From a virus, in the IMG/VR virus record IMGVR_UViG_3300019762_000012, positions 1 through 44,189 of that record: 44,189 nucleotides of DNA. The stretch is one strand, 5' to 3'. The notes beneath the pieces are model-generated. The model had not been told where the DNA came from. It did no database searches and saw only the letters and a program-made list of their open reading frames with translations. Positions 2,775 through 44,189 of this stretch are shown piece by piece. Both the position numbers and the translations under genes were made by a program. Each line of letters starts with the position of its first letter. The stretch's first letter is position 1.

Positions 2775-4748
2775 ATGGCAAAGAAACTTCACACGGATAT
2801 AGAGACTTACAGCTCTGTATCTATCAAAGACTGCGGGGCGTACAAGTATATACAATCCAAAGACTTCGAAATTCTATTAGTAGCATATGCATTTGATAAT
2901 GACCCTATTAAGGTCATAGACTTAGCGCAAGGCGAAATATTACCTGATGAATTCATAGAGGCTATGGAGGATAGCAGCATACAGAAGTGGGCGCACAATG
3001 CCGTTTTTGAGAGATTATCCTTCAAGGCTTATGGGCTAGATATCCCTACAAACGAATGGTATTGCTCTTCTATTAAGGCGGCTTATTGTGGCTTACCCCT
3101 ATCACTTGAGGGAGTGTCCAAAGCTCTGCACTTAGGAGAGAAAGGTAAGAAATCAACAGGTAAGGCTTTAATAAAATACTTTTGCGAACCTTGTAAACCC
3201 ACTAAGGTGAACGGAGGTAGAACTAGGAATCTTCCAGATCATGACCTAGAGAAATGGGAGAGCTTTAAAGAGTATTGTTTGTTTGATGTCGAAGCCGAGA
3301 GAGAAGTGGATAGGCAGCTAGAACATATAGAGATACCTGAATGGGAAAGGGGTAATTACTTAACAGATCAAATAATAAATGACCGAGGTATAGAGGTGGA
3401 TTTAACCTTCGCACAGAAGTGTGTAGATATATATACGATATTCTCCGCATCGGTCAAAGAGGAAATGATAAGATTGACAGGATTAGACAATCCCAACAGT
3501 GCCGCACAGCTTAAGAAGTGGATAGGTGAACACCTAGGAAAAGAGATAACATCATTAGGTAAAGATTTGATACCGGCACTCATTGAAGAAGCTGGAGAGG
3601 GTACTGTTGCGGATGTGCTAAGACTGAGACAGAAGTCTTCTAAAACTTCCATAAAAAAATATTCTAAGATGTTAGATTGTGCCTCACCCGTAGGTCACAG
3701 AGCCCATGGACTATTCCAGTTCTACGGAGCTAACCGTACAGGTAGATGGGCAGGCAGACTAGTACAATTGCAGAATTTACCACAGAATCACCTTCCGGAC
3801 ATAGAGAATGACAGATCCTACGTGAGAGAAGGGGATTATGATTTAGTTGACATACTATATGGGGACGAAATACCTTTTCTTCTATCTCAGTTAGTCCGAA
3901 CCGCCTTTGTCGCTCCTAAGAACCACACATTCGTTGTTGCTGACTTCTCAGCTATTGAGGCTAGAGTCATAGCTTGGTTAGCAGACGAGAAGTGGAGACT
4001 GGACGTATTCAATACAACAGGAAAGATATATGAGGCCTCAGCCGCTATGATGTTCAATGTGCCTATCGAAGAAATTACTAAGGGCTCAGACCTAAGAGCG
4101 AAAGGTAAAGTGTCGGAGTTGGCGCTAGGCTTCGGGGGAGGAGTAGGAGCCCTAACAGTCATGGGGGCTGAGAAGATGGGATTATCTACCTCTGAGATGA
4201 AAGACATTATAGCAAAATGGAGAGAGAAGTCTCCTGCCATAACTCGACTATGGAAGTCCCTGGAGAATGGGGCAAAGAGGTGTATCAGAACAGGACAACC
4301 TTACACAATCAAACAAAAAGGCATAACCTTCAGAAGAGAGGGCAAAGCTCTGACAGTTCAACTTCCTTCGGGGCGTAAGTTGTGCTATTGGGGACCAGGG
4401 TTCACCTTGAACCGTTTCGGCAGTGAATCTATAAGATACATGGGCATGAACCAAGAGACTAAACAATGGGGGTATCAAGAGACGTACGGAGGTAAACTTA
4501 CGGAGAATGTTATACAGGCGATAGCCAGAGATTTACTTATGCACTCTATGAACAGACTGACGGAGGAAGGATTCAAGATAGTTATGCATGTACACGATGA
4601 GGCTATATGCGAAGTTGAGGACTGTATGGGTAATCCCGAGGCTAAGCTTAAAGAAATGTGTGACATAATGGGGGAGAGTGTCCCATGGGCTGAGGGCTTG
4701 CCCCTTGTGGCTGATGGCTATATAACCCCGTTCTACAAAAAAGATTAA
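2775..4748 (+). CDS. Family A DNA polymerase with 3'-5' exonuclease domain
   Basis: This 657-residue protein is T7-like in size. The N-terminal exonuclease shows D8-I9-E10 (Exo I), HNAVFERL at 74-81 (Exo II) and a YCLFD Exo III segment near 167-171. The polymerase domain has the ANRTGRWAGR fingers motif near 319-328, motif A DFSAIEARV starting at D390, motif B (RAKGKVSELALGFGGG, 441-456) and motif C H607-D608-E609. All catalytic carboxylates are present, so both activities should be intact. Together with the SSB upstream and the primase-helicase downstream it forms the phage's own replisome core. Confidence 0.97.
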   Translation: MAKKLHTDIETYSSVSIKDCGAYKYIQSKDFEILLVAYAFDNDPIKVIDLAQGEILPDEFIEAMEDSSIQKWAHNAVFERLSFKAYGLDIPTNEWYCSSIKAAYCGLPLSLEGVSKALHLGEKGKKSTGKALIKYFCEPCKPTKVNGGRTRNLPDHDLEKWESFKEYCLFDVEAEREVDRQLEHIEIPEWERGNYLTDQIINDRGIEVDLTFAQKCVDIYTIFSASVKEEMIRLTGLDNPNSAAQLKKWIGEHLGKEITSLGKDLIPALIEEAGEGTVADVLRLRQKSSKTSIKKYSKMLDCASPVGHRAHGLFQFYGANRTGRWAGRLVQLQNLPQNHLPDIENDRSYVREGDYDLVDILYGDEIPFLLSQLVRTAFVAPKNHTFVVADFSAIEARVIAWLADEKWRLDVFNTTGKIYEASAAMMFNVPIEEITKGSDLRAKGKVSELALGFGGGVGALTVMGAEKMGLSTSEMKDIIAKWREKSPAITRLWKSLENGAKRCIRTGQPYTIKQKGITFRREGKALTVQLPSGRKLCYWGPGFTLNRFGSESIRYMGMNQETKQWGYQETYGGKLTENVIQAIARDLLMHSMNRLTEEGFKIVMHVHDEAICEVEDCMGNPEAKLKEMCDIMGESVPWAEGLPLVADGYITPFYKKD

Positions 4749-4834: not shown

Positions 4835-7243
4835 ATGGAACACAATGGCAAAATTTCAATAGCTACTGGTATAGCAGCTAACTCTTATAAGTGGAAAAAT
4901 AAAAAGATAGAATGGTCTGATCTTGTAGAGATATTGACCACGGCTAACTACACCAATGAGACTTATAAGGAGTTCATGAACTTGTCTAAGACTGATCAGT
5001 CTAAGATAAAGGACGTTGGAGGATTCGTTGGGGGATACCTGAGAAACGGTAGACGTAAACCCTCTAATGTAGTCAATAGACAACTCCTTACCCTAGACAT
5101 TGATTTCGGGACCTTAGATTTTTGGTTAGACTTCATACTCCAGTACTCGTGTGCTGCTGTACTACACGGTACGCATAAGCATTCGGATATAACTCCTAAG
5201 TACAGACTAGTTATACCTCTAGACAGAGAAGTATCTCCTGATGAGTACGTCGCTATATCTAGACAGATAGCAGGGACTCTCGACATAGAACTATTTGACC
5301 CCACCACATTCCAACCAGAAAGGCTAATGTTTTGGCCATCGTCCCCTAAAGATGTCGAGTTTTACTCGGAAGTACAGGACGGGGAGTGGCTATCTGCCGA
5401 TGAGGTATTAGACTCTTATCAAGATTGGACTGACTCTAGTCTATGGCCTACAGTCGACAAAGAGTACGACGATGTCAGAAAGTCAGTAGACAAACAAGAG
5501 GACCCTTTAGAGAAAAAAGGCATAATAGGTGCATTCTGTCGAACTTATACTATGACAGAGGTAATGGATACGTTACTAACAGAGCATTACACACATACTA
5601 GTGGGGATAGATATACTTATGTAAGAGGTTCGGCCGCTAACGGGCTGATCGTATACGATGATAAATTCGCATTCTCTCACCATGGAACAGACCCATCGGG
5701 GGGTAAATTATGCAATGCCTTCGATATGGTGCGTATTCATATGTTTGGGCACTTGGATGAGGGGTCCAAGGCGTCTAAACGGGAAAAGTTACCTTCTTTC
5801 AAAAAGATGGAAGAGTTCGCAAGAAAGGATCCTAAGACTAAAGGGGTTATAGCTGAAGAGAATATCGCTCTAGCTAGATACGATTTTAGAGAGGACCTTG
5901 AGGAAAACACAGATAGTCTAGATGAGCAAGAGAGTGAACTAGACATGGAGTGGGCTAAAGAGTTAGAGGTGGATGCGAAGGGCAAGTATGTATCCTCTGC
6001 GGGAAATCTTAACCTCATATTCGCCAATGACCCTAGACTTAAGGACGCATTCAAACTTAATGACTTTGACGGGAAGAGATACACAGTTAAGAGCCTACCA
6101 TGGAGAAAGATAACAACTCCTGAGGATATCAAGAACGTAGACTACTCAGGTGTACGTAATTATATAGAGGATATATACGGGATTACTGGGGTACAAAAGA
6201 TAGAGGACTCACTGTCTTTGGAATTTGAGAGACAATCCTTCCACCCAGTGAAAGATTATCTTAACTCTCTTGAGTGGGACGGGGTCGCTAGAATTGACGA
6301 GTTTCTAATAAAGTACTTCGGTACAACAGACGACATATATCACCGCGAGGCTTTGCGAAAAATGATGTGCGGTGCCGTTGCTAGAATATTCCGCCCTGGT
6401 ACTAAGTTTGATTTAGTATTGACTTTTGTCAGCATAGAGGGTACGGGTAAATCATCATTCTTAGATTGTCTAGGGAAAGCGTGGTTTTCTGATTCATTCA
6501 TGACCGTGACCGGTAAGGAGGCATTCGAACAACTGCAAGGGGCTTGGATTATTGAGATGGCAGAGTTAGCGGGACTTCGTAAGACAGAGGTAGAGGCGGT
6601 AAAACACTTTATAACTAAGCAAGAGGATATGTTCAGACCTGCCTACGCTAGAACTACGGAGACATTTAAAAGGCAATGTGTATTTTTCGGAACGACCAAT
6701 AATTCTAATTTCCTGAAGGATCCTTCCGGTAATCGTAGATTCATGCCCGTAGATGTATGGGATGTTAAGCTAGTAGATAACCCTGCTCTAATGGAAATTA
6801 TAAAAGGGGACGGCACATACATCGACCAGATGTGGGCTGAGGCGGTACAACTGGTGAATGCCGGAGAAAAATTATATCTAAGTAAAGAAGCTGAAACGCT
6901 TGCGAGAATCGAGCAACATGGACACAGTGAGATTGACGAGAGGGTGGGAATCATTGAGAAGTATATATATACTCTCCTTCCTGATAATTGGGAGGAGATG
7001 GACGTCTACGACAGACGGAACTTTCTCAATGATCCTCTGTCACCTAAGGGCACAATATCTCGTAAAGGAGTATGTGTTGCTGAGATATGGTGTGAGTGCT
7101 TAGGTAAAGAAAAGAATGACATGGACAAGTATAAGACGAGAGAAATAAATGATGTCCTTCGAGGACTAGAGTGTTTGAAAGCTGCCAAATCGGCTAAGAG
7201 TTTTAGCATATACGGCAGACAGAGGTATTACAATGTAATCTAA
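4835..7243 (+). CDS. VapE-family primase-helicase
   Basis: This is an 802-residue two-part enzyme. The N-terminus resembles an archaeo-eukaryotic-type primase: TLDID with D88 and D90, then the THKHSDITPKYRLVIPL segment (113-129) and the FDPTTFQPERLMFWP stretch (154-168). The C-terminal half is a VapE/virulence-associated E helicase: Walker A EGTGKSS at 535-541, acidic WIIEMAEL at 571-578, FFGTTNN at 617-623 and an arginine-finger-like GNRRFMP at 632-638. Such fusions prime and unwind DNA at phage origins. It directly follows the polymerase and has its own promoter. Confidence 0.93.
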   Translation: MEHNGKISIATGIAANSYKWKNKKIEWSDLVEILTTANYTNETYKEFMNLSKTDQSKIKDVGGFVGGYLRNGRRKPSNVVNRQLLTLDIDFGTLDFWLDFILQYSCAAVLHGTHKHSDITPKYRLVIPLDREVSPDEYVAISRQIAGTLDIELFDPTTFQPERLMFWPSSPKDVEFYSEVQDGEWLSADEVLDSYQDWTDSSLWPTVDKEYDDVRKSVDKQEDPLEKKGIIGAFCRTYTMTEVMDTLLTEHYTHTSGDRYTYVRGSAANGLIVYDDKFAFSHHGTDPSGGKLCNAFDMVRIHMFGHLDEGSKASKREKLPSFKKMEEFARKDPKTKGVIAEENIALARYDFREDLEENTDSLDEQESELDMEWAKELEVDAKGKYVSSAGNLNLIFANDPRLKDAFKLNDFDGKRYTVKSLPWRKITTPEDIKNVDYSGVRNYIEDIYGITGVQKIEDSLSLEFERQSFHPVKDYLNSLEWDGVARIDEFLIKYFGTTDDIYHREALRKMMCGAVARIFRPGTKFDLVLTFVSIEGTGKSSFLDCLGKAWFSDSFMTVTGKEAFEQLQGAWIIEMAELAGLRKTEVEAVKHFITKQEDMFRPAYARTTETFKRQCVFFGTTNNSNFLKDPSGNRRFMPVDVWDVKLVDNPALMEIIKGDGTYIDQMWAEAVQLVNAGEKLYLSKEAETLARIEQHGHSEIDERVGIIEKYIYTLLPDNWEEMDVYDRRNFLNDPLSPKGTISRKGVCVAEIWCECLGKEKNDMDKYKTREINDVLRGLECLKAAKSAKSFSIYGRQRYYNVI

Positions 7244-11765: not shown

Positions 11766-11983
11766 TGGAGACCAAGATAAACACCGATTTCGAGTCAGTT
11801 AAAAATTTATGTTCTTTACAAGGGGCCGAGAAGGTTTCTTCTTTTTTCTTCCCTATGAGGGGGTATGCTATATTCCGAACCGAAGTCCCCAACGTAATAG
11901 CGGGACGTATAGTCGTAAATTGGGCTATAGAGGATGCTACACAAAAAGAGGTTATGGATTGGCTATATCCTGAAGAGGCTTAA
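11765..11983 (+). CDS. Small hypothetical protein coupled to the helicase
   Basis: This is a 72-residue protein. The ATG overlaps the helicase stop (TGATG); a GTG one codon earlier is less likely. It contains a hydrophobic aromatic centre (VSSFFFPMRGYAIFR) and a C-terminal helix ending WLYPEEA. There is no recognised family. Translational coupling suggests that it acts with the helicase or is made in proportion to it. Confidence 0.65.
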   Translation: METKINTDFESVKNLCSLQGAEKVSSFFFPMRGYAIFRTEVPNVIAGRIVVNWAIEDATQKEVMDWLYPEEA

Positions 11984-12059
11984 AAAATAATTTAAAAATT
12001 TCTTTTAAAAATATTTTGAAACTAAATTTAAAGTTGTACTTTAGCAGAGTCATAAGACA
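11983..12059 (+). promoter_or_regulatory. Promoter repeat, copy 1 (77 bp)
   Basis: These 77 bases are repeated at 14979-15055 with one mismatch (12032 against 15028). The element comprises A/T tracts, TTTG (12015-12018), an 18-base spacer, the core TACTTTAG (12037-12044) and the transcribed start CAGAGTCATAAGACA. The core departs from TAnnTTTG only at its seventh base and recurs at 43197-43204. Conservation of the whole block, including the initially transcribed bases, marks a regulated promoter class. Confidence 0.75.
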
Positions 12060-12072
12060 TTAACTAACACCC

Positions 12073-12737: not shown

Positions 12738-13306
12738 TGAAGGTCCTTAGAGCTAATCTAGAATACTCAGTCAAGAAAGTAATAGAATACTTTGATGCGA
12801 GTATCCCTCCCGAGGCGAAGACCTTGGCCGCGAAATTGGAGGAGGTAGAAAAACTTGAAATATTCGTAGTATTCCGCGAATGGATAGAGTCCAAAGAGGC
12901 GCAGGAGATAGTATTCCCTTATGCTAAAGTCGAGGAAAGACCATTGCCTCACAACCCTATTATCACTAATAACTTTGTTGTGATGAGCATAGGTAATGGG
13001 GAAATGGCTTTTCCTGTAGAGTCCTTATTCTATACATATAGACGGTCTAAGCAGAGGATACCTAATCATACTAATACGGTCAAGGGCACCAAGGTATCTA
13101 GCCAATCAGACGAGCTCATTAGGAGATTAGAGGAGTACTCACGTATAATCGCTAACTCTAAGGGATCTACTAAGGAGGAATTACTGGAGAGTCAAAAGAA
13201 GAGACCTAATCTAAGATTTGTGCAGATGACAAACACAGAGATAATAAATACCTATTGGAGAACAATAGAGGGCCAAGCAAATAGAATCCTGATGGAAGGG
13301 CGATAA
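12737..13306 (+). CDS. Hypothetical early protein
   Basis: This is a 189-residue protein started at the ATG overlapping the previous stop. It has a helical N-terminal part (1-60), a middle beta-like part (ITNNFVVMSIGNGEMAFPVESLFYTY, near 75-102) and a polar helical C-terminal part. No family is recognised. Its stop overlaps the start of the HTH gene (TAATG), so it may be the partner of that small regulator. Confidence 0.7.
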   Translation: MKVLRANLEYSVKKVIEYFDASIPPEAKTLAAKLEEVEKLEIFVVFREWIESKEAQEIVFPYAKVEERPLPHNPIITNNFVVMSIGNGEMAFPVESLFYTYRRSKQRIPNHTNTVKGTKVSSQSDELIRRLEEYSRIIANSKGSTKEELLESQKKRPNLRFVQMTNTEIINTYWRTIEGQANRILMEGR

Positions 13307-13548
13307 TGGTTAAGAGACCGGATATACTCAACACTTTACCCCGAGGAGCCTCCGCAGAGATAGCCGACAGACTCGGGGTAAGTCGTGGGTATGTAAGTTC
13401 TGTGATAAATGGCAAGAAGAGCCAATCTAATTCAAAAGGTCGGGAGATAATAGACTTAGCACAGGCAATGGCTGCAATCCAGCTATGGAACGAATTATTC
13501 TGCCAATGTGATGCGCCTACTCTCGACCCTTTGAAAGTTAAATTATAA
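13306..13548 (+). CDS. Small helix-turn-helix protein
   Basis: This is an 80-residue protein. A Cro/XRE-like helix-turn-helix is visible at about 17-39 (AEIADRLGVSRGYVSSVINGK), with the usual GVSxxYVS turn, followed by a polar linker and one helix. It is small enough to be a DNA-binding domain only. It precedes thymidylate synthase in the operon. It could regulate the duplicated promoters at 11983 and 14979 or bind the iteron regions; neither can be shown here. Confidence 0.8.
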   Translation: MVKRPDILNTLPRGASAEIADRLGVSRGYVSSVINGKKSQSNSKGREIIDLAQAMAAIQLWNELFCQCDAPTLDPLKVKL

Positions 13549-14978: not shown

Positions 14979-15055
14979 AAAAATAATTTAAAAATTTCTT
15001 TTAAAAATATTTTGAAACTAAATTTAATGTTGTACTTTAGCAGAGTCATAAGACA
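14979..15055 (+). promoter_or_regulatory. Promoter repeat, copy 2 (77 bp)
   Basis: This near-perfect copy of 11983-12059 (one mismatch) has TTTG at 15011-15014, TACTTTAG at 15033-15040 and the same CAGAGTCATAAGACA start. It is placed directly after the terminator and drives the operon starting at 15077. Confidence 0.75.
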
Positions 15056-15076
15056 ACAACTAAGAACGAATATACC

Positions 15077-19625: not shown

Positions 19626-19651
19626 AAACCCTCAAAACTACAAATGTATAC

Positions 19652-19676
19652 CGCGTATATATTGTATACGCGTTTT
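19652..19676 (+). terminator. Hairpin/terminator after the exonuclease gene
   Basis: CGCGTATA and TATACGCG pair perfectly (8 bp) around a 5-base loop and are followed by TTTT. It lies 27 bases after the stop of the exonuclease gene and may be the first of two tandem terminators closing the early arm. Confidence 0.6.
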
Positions 19677-19735
19677 GCGCGAAAATCCGCCACCAGAACG
19701 ACCAAAAATCCGCCGCGCGCGGAGCTAGATTCTGC

Positions 19736-19775
19736 GAGAGCCCTATCAATTTTACCGGTAGGGCTCTTCTGTTTG
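19736..19775 (+). terminator. Rho-independent terminator closing the early arm
   Basis: AGAGCCCTA (19737-19745) pairs with TAGGGCTCT (19759-19767) around a 13-base loop, followed by TCTGTTTG. The stem resembles the terminator at 14934 in sequence (shared AGCCCT). With the hairpin at 19652 it isolates early from late transcription. Confidence 0.75.
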
Positions 19776-19782
19776 CTAAAAT

Positions 19783-20132
19783 AACACAATGAAAACACAA
19801 TAAAACACAATACATTGTTCCCTCTGTACGCCCCATATATACAGGGCTTGCCCCCACGTCAAACACAATAAAACAATAACTATACTAAACTTTTAAAATA
19901 TATAATATATAGTAATAGGATATACGTATATAATGTACATAACGCACACGTAGTATATAATGTATACATAGTATATATAACACATATAGTGATATACGTT
20001 ATTACAGAAGTTTACCAAATCATTGTGTTTATTGTTCCTGACCCCCTAAAATGCCCCTCTAGCCCAATACCGACGGGCGACACAATAAAACACAATAAGG
20101 GGAACAATAGCAAAAGCATTGTGTTTATTGTT
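19783..20132. repeat. Iteron cluster A (AACACAATA / GGAACAATA family)
   Basis: AACACAATA occurs at 19794-19802, 19804-19812 and 19862-19870, with a variant ending in G at 19783-19791. Related copies are at 20079-20097 (two ACACAATAs). ATTGTTCC, the reverse of GGAACAAT, lies at 19814-19821 and 20031-20038. A 16-base direct repeat CATTGTGTTTATTGTT is at 20021-20036 and 20117-20132. GGAACAATA is at 20101-20109. The block 19879-19915 resembles 42975-43010, and ATGCCCCTCTAGCCC (20051-20065) is the reverse complement of a stretch near 42939-42953, with one mismatch. Confidence 0.8.
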
Positions 20133-20184
20133 TTCGCACTACACCGACGACTATGTATACACCCTATACATTCGTAATTTTTGC

Positions 20185-20192
20185 TATCTTTG
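20185..20192 (+). promoter_or_regulatory. -7 promoter core abutting the first small terminase gene
   Basis: TATCTTTG matches TAnnTTTG and ends 4 bases before the ATG at 20197. Transcription would begin at or just before the start codon, so the message is predicted to be leaderless or nearly so. No clear -33 box is seen at the usual distance. Confidence 0.5.
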
Positions 20193-20196
20193 GTAC

Positions 20197-20649
20197 ATGG
20201 AAAAGGTACAGAAATCAAGACTAAAGAAATTGACAGAGAAGATCACTCTCAGACATCTAGAATTTTGCGAGGAATATCTTGCGTGTTGGAATGCCTCGGA
20301 GGCAGGTAGAAGACTTGGCTATTCCGTCAAACATGCCCGAGGGATAGCCAGTAGGATATTGCAGAGTGACGACCTTCAGGAGTACATTGCTATACGTAGA
20401 GGTAAGATACCATACCGACACGGGGAGAGAGAAACTGAATTGCACTACGATGCCAAGGGTTCTATAATCTTCACTGAAATGGCTGACTTCATGTACATCG
20501 ACATGAAGGGAGGCATTCACCTAAGAGGGGGACTGGACTATGCGACTCTCCCATTCGAGATAGTGGACCAAATAGACTACGTTCGAAACAATCCTAGGGG
20601 GCTCTCCTTGTTCTTCCTCGATCACTCATTGGCTAAGATGTTACTATAA
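20197..20649 (+). CDS. Small terminase subunit paralogue 1 (short)
   Basis: This is a 150-residue protein started at the ATG next to the promoter core; an upstream in-frame start would lie within the iterons and promoter. Residues 10-60 form a Terminase_2-like helix-turn-helix (HLEFCEEYLACWNASEAGRRLGY), and 85-125 resemble the oligomerisation region (IFTEMADFMYID, GIHLRGGLDYATLP). The same two regions occur in the 20703 protein, which is 46 residues longer. This copy lacks the usual C-terminal region that contacts the large subunit or portal, so it may be a DNA-binding regulator or a hetero-oligomer partner. Confidence 0.75.
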   Translation: MEKVQKSRLKKLTEKITLRHLEFCEEYLACWNASEAGRRLGYSVKHARGIASRILQSDDLQEYIAIRRGKIPYRHGERETELHYDAKGSIIFTEMADFMYIDMKGGIHLRGGLDYATLPFEIVDQIDYVRNNPRGLSLFFLDHSLAKMLL

Positions 20650-20702: not shown

Positions 20703-21293
20703 ATGGACAGACAGAAACAAAGACAAATAGAGGAGGCAAAGGCGGAGCTCTCAGAGAGGCAACTCGCTTTCTGTCATGAATATATAATCGACTGGAACGG
20801 TACTCGTGCGGCTATTGCTGCAGGGTACAGTAAAAAGGCTGCCTCAGAGATGGCCTACCAGAATATGAAAAAACACAAGATAACTGACTACATCAAGCTA
20901 ATCAAGAACAATGTAGAGAAAGAGGCAGGTATCACCCGACTTAAGGTGGTCCAGGAACTAAAAGGCATTGCCTTCTCTGATATCTCTGACATACTAGAGG
21001 TGGATCTAATGGGGCGAGTCTTCCTGAAGGACGGCATGACCCTATCGGAGTTACCCAAGGAAGCCACTAAGTTGATAGAATCCGTCGAGCCTACTAAGTT
21101 TGGTATCAAGCTGAAACTGGTGAGTAAAGAGAACGCCATGGCTCAACTGATCAAGGTTATGGGTTATAGCGCCCCTGACAAAGTGAACGTAACAGGCTCG
21201 TTAGACACTAAGGCAAAGATCGATTATTCTGAGCTAAGCCCTGAGGCACTAGAGGAGATTGTTAAATCAGCACAGAAGAATGGACTTAAATAG
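20703..21293 (+). CDS. Small terminase subunit (Terminase_2 type)
   Basis: This is a 196-residue protein. The N-terminal HTH (about 16-60: LSERQLAFCHEYIIDWNGTRAAIAAGYS) is characteristic of Terminase_2 small subunits. A central beta/helix region (98-140: FSDISDILEVDLMGRVFLKDG, LPKEATKLIESV) and a C-terminal AMAQLIKVMGY helix complete it. It overlaps the large terminase gene by 14 bases. It binds the packaging site and loads the motor. The iteron region A lies about 570 bases upstream, a usual place for a pac or cos site. Confidence 0.9.
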   Translation: MDRQKQRQIEEAKAELSERQLAFCHEYIIDWNGTRAAIAAGYSKKAASEMAYQNMKKHKITDYIKLIKNNVEKEAGITRLKVVQELKGIAFSDISDILEVDLMGRVFLKDGMTLSELPKEATKLIESVEPTKFGIKLKLVSKENAMAQLIKVMGYSAPDKVNVTGSLDTKAKIDYSELSPEALEEIVKSAQKNGLK

Positions 21294-42877: not shown

Positions 42878-43134
42878 AACACAATAAGGAACAATATAAC
42901 ACTATGTATTGTTCCTTTTGTTTTGCCTGATTTTAAAGGGTTAGAGGGGCATAGGAACAATAGGAACAATAAATACTATAAACTTTAGAAATATATAATA
43001 TAGGGTAATACTAGGGCACCGATAACAACATATACACGTATACAGGGTTTTTCTAGTTTTAGGGGAATCATTGTTCCTATTGTGTTATCCTGTGCTTATA
43101 TCTCTGACCTTCAAATATTTACAGGGGAACAATA
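42878..43134. repeat. Iteron cluster B (GGAACAATA family)
   Basis: GGAACAATA occurs forward at 42888-42896, 42954-42962, 42963-42971 and 43126-43134. It occurs in reverse (TATTGTTCC) at 42907-42915 and, as ATTGTTCC, at 43070-43077. AACACAATA is at 42878-42886 and its reverse TATTGTGTT at 43079-43087. The tandem pair at 42954-42971 is directly adjacent to the AT-rich core. Confidence 0.85.
42886..42924 (+). terminator. Iteron-built hairpin terminator after the late operon
   Basis: AAGGAACAATA (42886-42896) and TATTGTTCCTT (42907-42917) pair perfectly around a 10-base loop and are followed by TTGTTTT. An outer AGGCA/TGCCT pair extends it. It may serve both as a terminator and as a palindromic protein-binding site. 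Confidence 0.65.
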
Positions 43135-43173
43135 AATAATAGAATACTTTTTTAAAAATATTTTTAAAAAATA

Positions 43174-43204
43174 TTTGTGATTTAAAATAAAAGCTATACT
43201 TTAG
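43174..43204 (+). promoter_or_regulatory. Early promoter with TACTTTAG core
   Basis: TTTG (43174-43177), a 19-base spacer, then TACTTTAG (43197-43204). The core and following CAG are identical to those of the 77-bp promoter repeats. The ATG at 43209 is only 4 bases beyond the core, implying a leaderless message or one starting within the codon region. It is the natural first early promoter. Confidence 0.65.
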
Positions 43205-43208
43205 CAGC

Positions 43209-43367
43209 ATGGAATTGGTACTAAGATATCAGGTGTTCAAATGGTTCTCTAATCAGAATCCCCACATGGATGAGGAAACATTACTGTTTGCCTTCTCTAT
43301 GATGAGCGACAAGATGTTGGCAGCGACTTATGGACTAACGTATCTGAGACCAGGGTATTTTTACTAA
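43209..43367 (+). CDS. 52-residue first early protein
   Basis: This short ORF begins MELVLRYQVFKWFSNQNPHM and ends at TAA 43365-43367. It has two helices rich in aromatic and Met residues (LLFAFSMMSDKML). It is the first gene after the TACTTTAG promoter and was predicted from promoter position. There is no recognised family; first-transcribed small phage proteins often target host functions, but that is speculation here. Confidence 0.6.
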   Translation: MELVLRYQVFKWFSNQNPHMDEETLLFAFSMMSDKMLAATYGLTYLRPGYFY

Positions 43368-43385: not shown

Positions 43386-43595
43386 ATGAAAAAAATAGAC
43401 TTAAAGGAAGTGATTGAAGCAACAGGAGTGGATAGTTTGGATCTAGCTCGCGTCCTATTCCCTTCAAACAAATACCCACAAGTAGCTCTGGAGAGAGTTA
43501 TGAGAGGGGAGTCAGAACTGAATGCAACTCAGATATATAACTTATCTGATCATACTGGCCTAGAAATTAACGACCTCTTCACTGAGGTAAAATAA
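43386..43595 (+). CDS. Small Cro/XRE-like regulator
   Basis: This is a 69-residue protein. The pattern of helices (IEATGVDSLDLARVLFPSN, YPQVALERVMRGESELNATQ, LSDHTGLEINDLF) fits a compact XRE-type helix-turn-helix, with the recognition helix near 31-41, a GES-type turn and a final LEINDLF helix. It lies next to region B and is a good candidate for binding the iterons or the TACTTTAG promoters. Neither binding nor role is shown. Confidence 0.7.
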   Translation: MKKIDLKEVIEATGVDSLDLARVLFPSNKYPQVALERVMRGESELNATQIYNLSDHTGLEINDLFTEVK

Positions 43596-43622: not shown

Positions 43623-44189
43623 ATGGGACAAATCAATTTTGACATGTCTATCGATATGAATGATAGACATCAAGCTAAAGCTATGGCAGCTTTTTTCGCA
43701 GTATTGGCTGGTGGGGCTACACCACTAGAAAATGAGGGAATCCGAAAAGGCGCTCCTTTCGACGAGGACTTAAAGTCTTTTCCGGCTGAAAAAGAGCCTG
43801 AGAACTTGACTAAGGTAAAAGAAGTAGTTCCGGACCCTCACAGGTTTGCAGCTGTACAAGGGACTACTAATGACCCTATAAGGGGACAGCACGCAGATTG
43901 TATACACCGTGTCAGCGTACCTACCTATAAAGAGATAGCCAAACTTTCTTTCGGTGAATTGAAAGAGGCTTTCCCTGAATTCAAGGCAAAAGGCATAGAC
44001 GCATTCCTAAACAAATTAGTCATGGCGGGGGCAATTGAGGCACCGGTGGGTTCCGATCTGAATAAGGGAACTCAAGAAGGAACTCAAGAAGGAACTCAAG
44101 AAGGAACTCAAGAAGGAACTCAAGAAGGAACTCAAGAAGGAACTCAAGAAGGAACTCAAGAAGGAACTCAAGAAGGAACTCAAGAAGGA
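43623..44189 (+). CDS. N-terminal part of the tandem-repeat early protein (continues at 1-292)
   Basis: 189 codons run open to the last base. The product begins MGQINFDMSIDMNDRHQAKA; an early hydrophobic patch (AMAAFFAVLAGG, about 20-31) is followed by a charged globular region with FGELKEAFPEFKAKGIDAF (about 111-129). The GTQE array begins at residue 149. The protein therefore has two domains joined by an extensible hydrophilic linker. It sits between the XRE-like regulator and the DUF2800 nuclease. The function is unknown. Confidence 0.85.
   Translation, partial: MGQINFDMSIDMNDRHQAKAMAAFFAVLAGGATPLENEGIRKGAPFDEDLKSFPAEKEPENLTKVKEVVPDPHRFAAVQGTTNDPIRGQHADCIHRVSVPTYKEIAKLSFGELKEAFPEFKAKGIDAFLNKLVMAGAIEAPVGSDLNKGTQEGTQEGTQEGTQEGTQEGTQEGTQEGTQEGTQEGTQEG
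44067..44189 (+). repeat. 12-bp perfect tandem repeat (coding GTQE), right end
   Basis: 123 bases, 10.25 perfect units, run to the end of the window and are identical with the array at bases 1-123. See the entry for the left end. Confidence 0.95.

Follow-up and report, generated by a model that had tools for sequence, protein, structure and literature searches.

The stretch of DNA analyzed in this study, the IMG/VR virus record IMGVR_UViG_3300019762_000012 (44,189 bases, hereafter the window), carries its primary genes on the plus strand and contains two iteron-bearing modules, A and B, each of which we propose to be a copy of a replication origin. The modules occupy the two boundaries between an arm of replication genes and an arm of terminase and structural genes. 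The early arm extends from about position 43209 across the window ends to 19625 and encodes an exonuclease, a single-stranded DNA-binding protein, a DNA polymerase (2775-4748), a primase-helicase, a second helicase, thymidylate synthase and an exonuclease subunit; the terminase at 20197 opens the late arm, which extends to 42864. The terms early and late are assigned from gene content. Module A lies ahead of the late arm and module B ahead of the early arm, both in the same orientation, and they are separated by 23.1 kb in one direction and 21.1 kb in the other, in agreement with a previous sequence-only reading of this DNA that had placed two related non-coding regions at the early/late boundaries, nearly opposite each other on a 44 kb circle. 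The portal protein is nearest to those of Croceibacter, Bacteroides, Alistipes and other Bacteroidota phages, and the gene order agrees with that of the closest named relative, Croceibacter phage P2559Y (NC_023614), a circular record of 43,153 bases with the same layout. The evidence that the window itself is circular is a 12-base tandem repeat, AAGAAGGAACTC, found at both ends (1-123 and 44067-44189) within an open frame; since the 115-base terminal overlap consists of this repeat, closure of the window into a circle is supported, not proven.

Anatomy of the two modules

The iterons AACACAATA and GGAACAATA occur six and seven times, respectively, on the two strands of the whole window, and all 13 copies fall within A or B. 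When slight degeneracy is allowed, the genome holds 22 copies in both orientations, 12 in A, eight in B and two elsewhere, so that the two modules contain 20 of the 22 iterons yet make up 2% of the genome, and the enrichment on which the earlier reading depended is borne out. Only four 9-mers with at least six copies in the genome are concentrated in A and B, and all four are the iterons. Both modules follow a common plan, in which outer iterons are followed by a tandem pair (period about 9) and an AT-rich spacer with a core, and then by an inverted tandem pair and a further set of outer iterons. A scan for inward-facing tandem repeats that makes no use of the iteron words returned multi-hit groups only at A and B, with no hits in five shuffles.

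Module A (19783-20134, plus strand) contains its 12 iterons, AT-rich spacer and inward-facing tandem pairs at a place where relatives have the module as well. Its outer left iterons, the last one inverted, span 19783-19821 (plus strand), followed by the left tandem pair (AACACAATA and AAAACAATA, period 8-9) at 19862-19878 on the plus strand, the AT-rich core AACAATAACTATACTAAACTTTTAAAATATATAATATATAGTAATA, a proposed melting site, at 19872-19917 (plus strand), the right inverted tandem pair (AACACAATG and GGAACAATA) at 20021-20038 on the minus strand, and the outer right iterons, two forward and two inverted, at 20089-20134 (plus strand). Module B (42878-43134, plus strand), the second proposed origin copy, has eight iterons in the plan and orientation of A. 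It includes an inverted iteron pair and a T-rich tail (42886-42917, plus strand), which also form a 13-pair terminator-like hairpin where the late arm ends, followed by the left tandem pair (two copies of GGAACAATA, period 9) at 42954-42971 and the AT-rich core AACAATAAATACTATAAACTTTAGAAATATATAATATAGGGTAATA at 42965-43010, both on the plus strand, and the right inverted tandem pair (GGAACAATG and AACACAATA) at 43069-43086 on the minus strand.

The two cores are alike, as had been claimed: a BLAST comparison of the genome with itself pairs 19865-19917 with 42957-43010 (81%, E 1.8e-6), and a 31-base stretch running from AAACTTT to GTAATA is identical at 27 of 31 positions. The GC-rich 15-base block reported in opposite orientation was also recovered, with ATGCCCCTCTAGCCC near 20050 matching the reverse complement of 42938-42952 (ATGCCCCTCTAACCC) at 14 of 15 positions. 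The TATA palindromes of the same reading are present, but merely as part of the AT-rich spacer. Because a global MAFFT alignment put the core in the wrong place, the two modules were compared by self-BLAST and position by position.

Conservation of the pair and its link to the replication genes

To follow the pair in related phages, we widened the set of relatives via the primase-helicase, with thresholds set by hand, and defined a clade by a primase-helicase identity of at least 53% to the protein in the window, a cut-off of convenience that is not derived from a tree. The pair is present at the arm boundaries in 15 of the 18 complete or near-complete genomes of this clade, which answers the question raised by the earlier reading of whether related phages keep both regions. 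It is also present in TCUEAP1, in which the primase-helicase is 50% identical. P2559Y has both modules at matching places. Its iteron (GTAAACAATA) differs from those of the window, and its two modules have near-identical cores; its record (NC_023614) annotates only genes at both modules and names no origin. The IMG/VR genomes G002, G003, G005 and G009 likewise carry both regions. When viral contigs were searched with exact patterns, the iteron pattern matched 12 contigs and the core pattern matched none.

The iteron words differ between phages (GTAAACAAT, GAAACAATG, GTAAACAAA, GTAAACCAT and TGTCTCAAA are examples) and agree between the two sites of one phage, the shared word being GTAAACCAT in G026, TGTCTCAAA in TCUEAP1 and GAAACAATG in G002. 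When each of 32 modules was compared with the other 31, the partner in the same genome was the best match in 23 cases. Taken together, words that differ between phages and agree within a phage, with the partner as best match, point to one trans-acting protein that acts at both sites.

The pair follows the replication genes. In most of the more distant primase-helicase relatives, a relative of the terminase in the window is undetectable or only distant, and the pair is kept in G026, G034, G036 and G031 despite an unrelated or distantly related terminase. Conversely, no comparable pair was found in P2559S, TCUEAP2, AS73P1, PD691P3 and BK649P1, which have related portal and tail genes and are without such a primase-helicase. 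Since the pair persists with other terminases and nothing comparable is seen in structural relatives that lack the helicase, we conclude that it belongs to the replication module.

Helicase-adjacent sites in the wider family

The candidate initiator is a VapE-like primase-helicase encoded at 4835-7243 on the plus strand (PHROG 256, E 1.7e-300; Pfam PF05272, E 3.5e-75), which we propose binds the iterons. Profile positions 363-786 of this protein, the C-terminal part included, match PDB 7pds, 'Similar to D. nodosus vapE', with E 2.4e-102. We take this structure to be the Staphylococcus aureus pathogenicity island (SaPI) Rep of Qiao et al. 2022, reportedly a study of staphylococcal self-loading helicases. 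SaPI Reps recognize an iteron origin directly downstream of their own gene through the C-terminal domain (PMC7581432), and the mapped origins of phage-inducible chromosomal islands (PICIs) always have two iteron sets around an AT-rich region (PMC6092414).

A similar arrangement is frequent in the wider family of the primase-helicase. Of the 103 loci below 53% identity, 62 have a cluster of forward and inverted iterons where the helicase gene ends (3'), and none of the 50 loci at or above 53% has one; the rate for such clusters in random windows is 0.4-2.4%. The definition of adjacency was changed once, because an earlier version based on the stop codon (57/103) missed overlaps with the gene end, and the end of the tblastn match together with the both-orientation condition was then used. 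The scan that ignores the iteron words, here requiring tandem pairs that face inward across an AT spacer, gave a similar picture downstream of the helicase gene, with 54 of 103 loci in the wider family (controls: 11/515 shuffled, 4/103 upstream) and one of 50 in this clade. Applied to the A and B modules of the 16 paired genomes, it recovered 28 of 32, both modules of the window included (shuffled, 19/320). As the position usual for the family is vacant in this clade and its architecture is present at A and B, we read the origin as having been relocated.

Two further features of these sites were considered. An alternating ACGCG/CGTATA element between the core and the right iterons is found in 38 of 52 helicase-adjacent sites, compared with 14% of control windows; in the A and B modules it occurs in 15 of 32 against 22% of controls, and we do not use it as a main argument. 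A GG/GT..AAC flavor runs through the iteron words of the family, of which 25 of 47 fit a small set of patterns, compared with about 1% of random 8-mers, a result that is suggestive only, as the patterns were picked after the words had been seen. The PICI/SaPI-like layout 3' of the helicase gene can be seen at L163, L166, L175, L182, L186 and L213, among other loci, which come from viral contigs and from bacterial genome contigs of Bacillota and Bacteroidota.

Proposed origins, alternatives and neighboring elements

We consider it likely, on the strength of these comparisons of sequence, that a single iteron-type origin, serving the VapE/SaPI-Rep-like primase-helicase of the phage itself, is present in duplicate as A and B. 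The earlier reading had offered origins, a packaging site and operators side by side; the comparative evidence favors the first, leaves the operators as the weaker option and makes packaging at both regions unlikely. In the mechanism that we propose, the C-terminal domain of the helicase would bind the tandem iterons that flank the AT-rich core. Two rings of the helicase, oriented toward each other, would be loaded, and the core would melt. The fused primase domain could then prime synthesis, with extension by the phage DNA polymerase, once an origin fires. Most of the helicase family has a single site of this kind right after the helicase gene, in place of which this clade has two copies in direct orientation at the ends of the early arm. 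More tentatively, and here we stop short of calling it probable, the clade may replicate from two concertedly evolving Rep-type origins that set early and late replication and gene dosage separately, and that derive from the helicase-adjacent origin through relocation and duplication.

The proposed origins are like those of PICIs and SaPIs in having two iteron sets around an AT-rich stretch and a VapE/Rep-type helicase encoded by the element (PMC6092414, PMC7581432), and differ from them in that they do not directly follow the helicase gene and that two copies stand on a phage genome. By analogy, the best reading is that A and B resemble oriL and oriR of Bacillus phage SPP1 in function, although the likeness seen here, two similarly organized sites on a 44 kb genome, is in anatomy only. 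In SPP1, oriL and oriR consist of direct repeats and an AT-rich DNA unwinding element on a circularized 44 kb genome (PMC6316719). The initiators differ, since SPP1 uses gp38 and gp39 with the DnaB-type gp40 whereas the candidate here is a VapE-type primase-helicase, and so do the positions, with oriL inside gene 38 and the SPP1 origins about 13 kb apart, compared with sites at the arm boundaries in the window. A PHROGs scan of the window, with some small open reading frames (ORFs) outside it, found the VapE-type primase-helicase and a second helicase (phrog_62) and no gp38-like match. Another comparison is the satellite phage P4, in which two iteron-bearing regions, ori and crr, are both recognized by the alpha primase-helicase; one is the origin and the other is required in cis, so that the likeness to A and B is one of description. 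The statement that the paired regions are not a described phage element thus holds in part: the origin type (PICI/SaPI) and dual origins (SPP1) have both been described, and their combination, a conserved origin pair that has been moved and doubled, was not found in the open-access literature searched.

Several observations weigh against an origin pair. Within the clade, the scans used detected a single module in G032 and no module in G040 or G042. (In G032 the portal match is weak and lies on the opposite strand.) In the wider family, 41 of the 103 loci are without an adjacent cluster at the chosen threshold, and as the loci are related, the counts given above are not independent trials. The BLAST similarity between A/B and the helicase-adjacent sites is marginal (mean best score of 29.7 bits versus 27.3 for reversed controls), and the link between them is therefore made through the architecture and the helicase. 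The GC skew is positive throughout, with no change of sign at A or B, and the cumulative skew that had been put forward as a check is uninformative here as a marker of origins. Lastly, a tandem-iteron site could also serve partition, copy control or fork arrest.

The alternative that survives best overlaps with the proposed origin pair, the point at issue being the copy from which replication starts: one region would be the active origin, and the other a cis element to which the same protein binds in order to arrest forks, control copy number or switch to concatemers. We regard this as possible, if somewhat doubtful. Within the origin-pair reading itself, one copy may likewise be the main origin and the other a late origin or a fork-stalling site. 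It has a precedent in SPP1, where oriR has been proposed to stall the fork and to trigger concatemer synthesis (PMC6316719; PMC3485210), and A is richer in iterons than B in most paired genomes; on the other hand, both modules have the full plan in most genomes of the clade, including an AT core that a simple roadblock would not need.

An operator role, the main rival to the origin reading, in which the iterons belong to a transcription switch and a helix-turn-helix (HTH)-like protein binds both regions to control the early and late arms, is in our judgment unlikely. The rival iteron-binding candidate is a small protein whose gene (43386-43595, plus strand), one of the first in the early arm, comes right after B and is conserved in this position in the clade. 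In a relative, the N-terminal domain is predicted to have five helices, each module precedes a transcription arm, and several sites are near-palindromic, for example GTAAACAATGATTGTTTAC in G005. The matches of this protein to HTH families, in Pfam as elsewhere, are weak, however, and a Foldseek search with the model found nothing at E <= 0.001, its hits of high target coverage being small transcription regulators. Family members with no detected relative of the HTH-like protein have the architecture of A and B as well, 3' of the helicase gene, and most iterons lie well upstream of the likely promoters, around an AT-rich spacer. An AT-rich stretch with TATACTTTAGC just upstream of the first early ORF (43140-43208, plus strand) was recognized by inspection of the sequence as an early promoter-like element, and promoter-like copies near 11983 and 14979 are without iterons. 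A packaging role, with A as a pac site and B as a related packaging or concatemer-processing site, has in its favor that A is directly upstream of the terminase genes, and is very improbable given that the pair persists alongside unrelated terminases, that structural relatives with another replication module show no comparable pair, and that B is far from the terminase; A alone may still contain a separate pac function.

If the origins are what we propose, then a helicase-adjacent plan found at many viral and bacterial-genome loci has been moved and doubled in one clade, and this phage group lends itself to the question of why a virus would relocate and duplicate its origin. The isolated phages P2559Y, TCUEAP1 and BF486P2 permit direct tests of why two origins are kept, and since the iteron words differ between phages and match within them, the clade supplies natural combinations of initiator and site with which recognition could be mapped.

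Some further observations concern the genes and repeats around the modules. The HTH-like protein of the window has 69 amino acids and is without the C-terminal beta domain seen in other aligned members of the clade, and a small protein encoded at 13306-13548, with a sub-threshold match to HTH_3, is a possible DNA-binding regulator. AT-rich repeats at 11983-12067, 14979-15063 and 43151-43207 are 79-96% alike, end in a TACTTTAGC-like box and look like early promoters; similar repeats are present in G002. A generic sigma-70 promoter scan returned sites no more numerous than in shuffles, and the Bacteroidota-type motif was judged by eye. A megablast search of 19001-44000 against phage records gave no match. 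On the late side of A, the terminase small subunit family phrog_51 is matched by two tandem genes (20197-20649 and 20703-21293), and in the early arm a tRNA-Leu(taa) and a second tRNA-like gene of unclear anticodon occupy the gap before the DNA polymerase gene (2435-2669).
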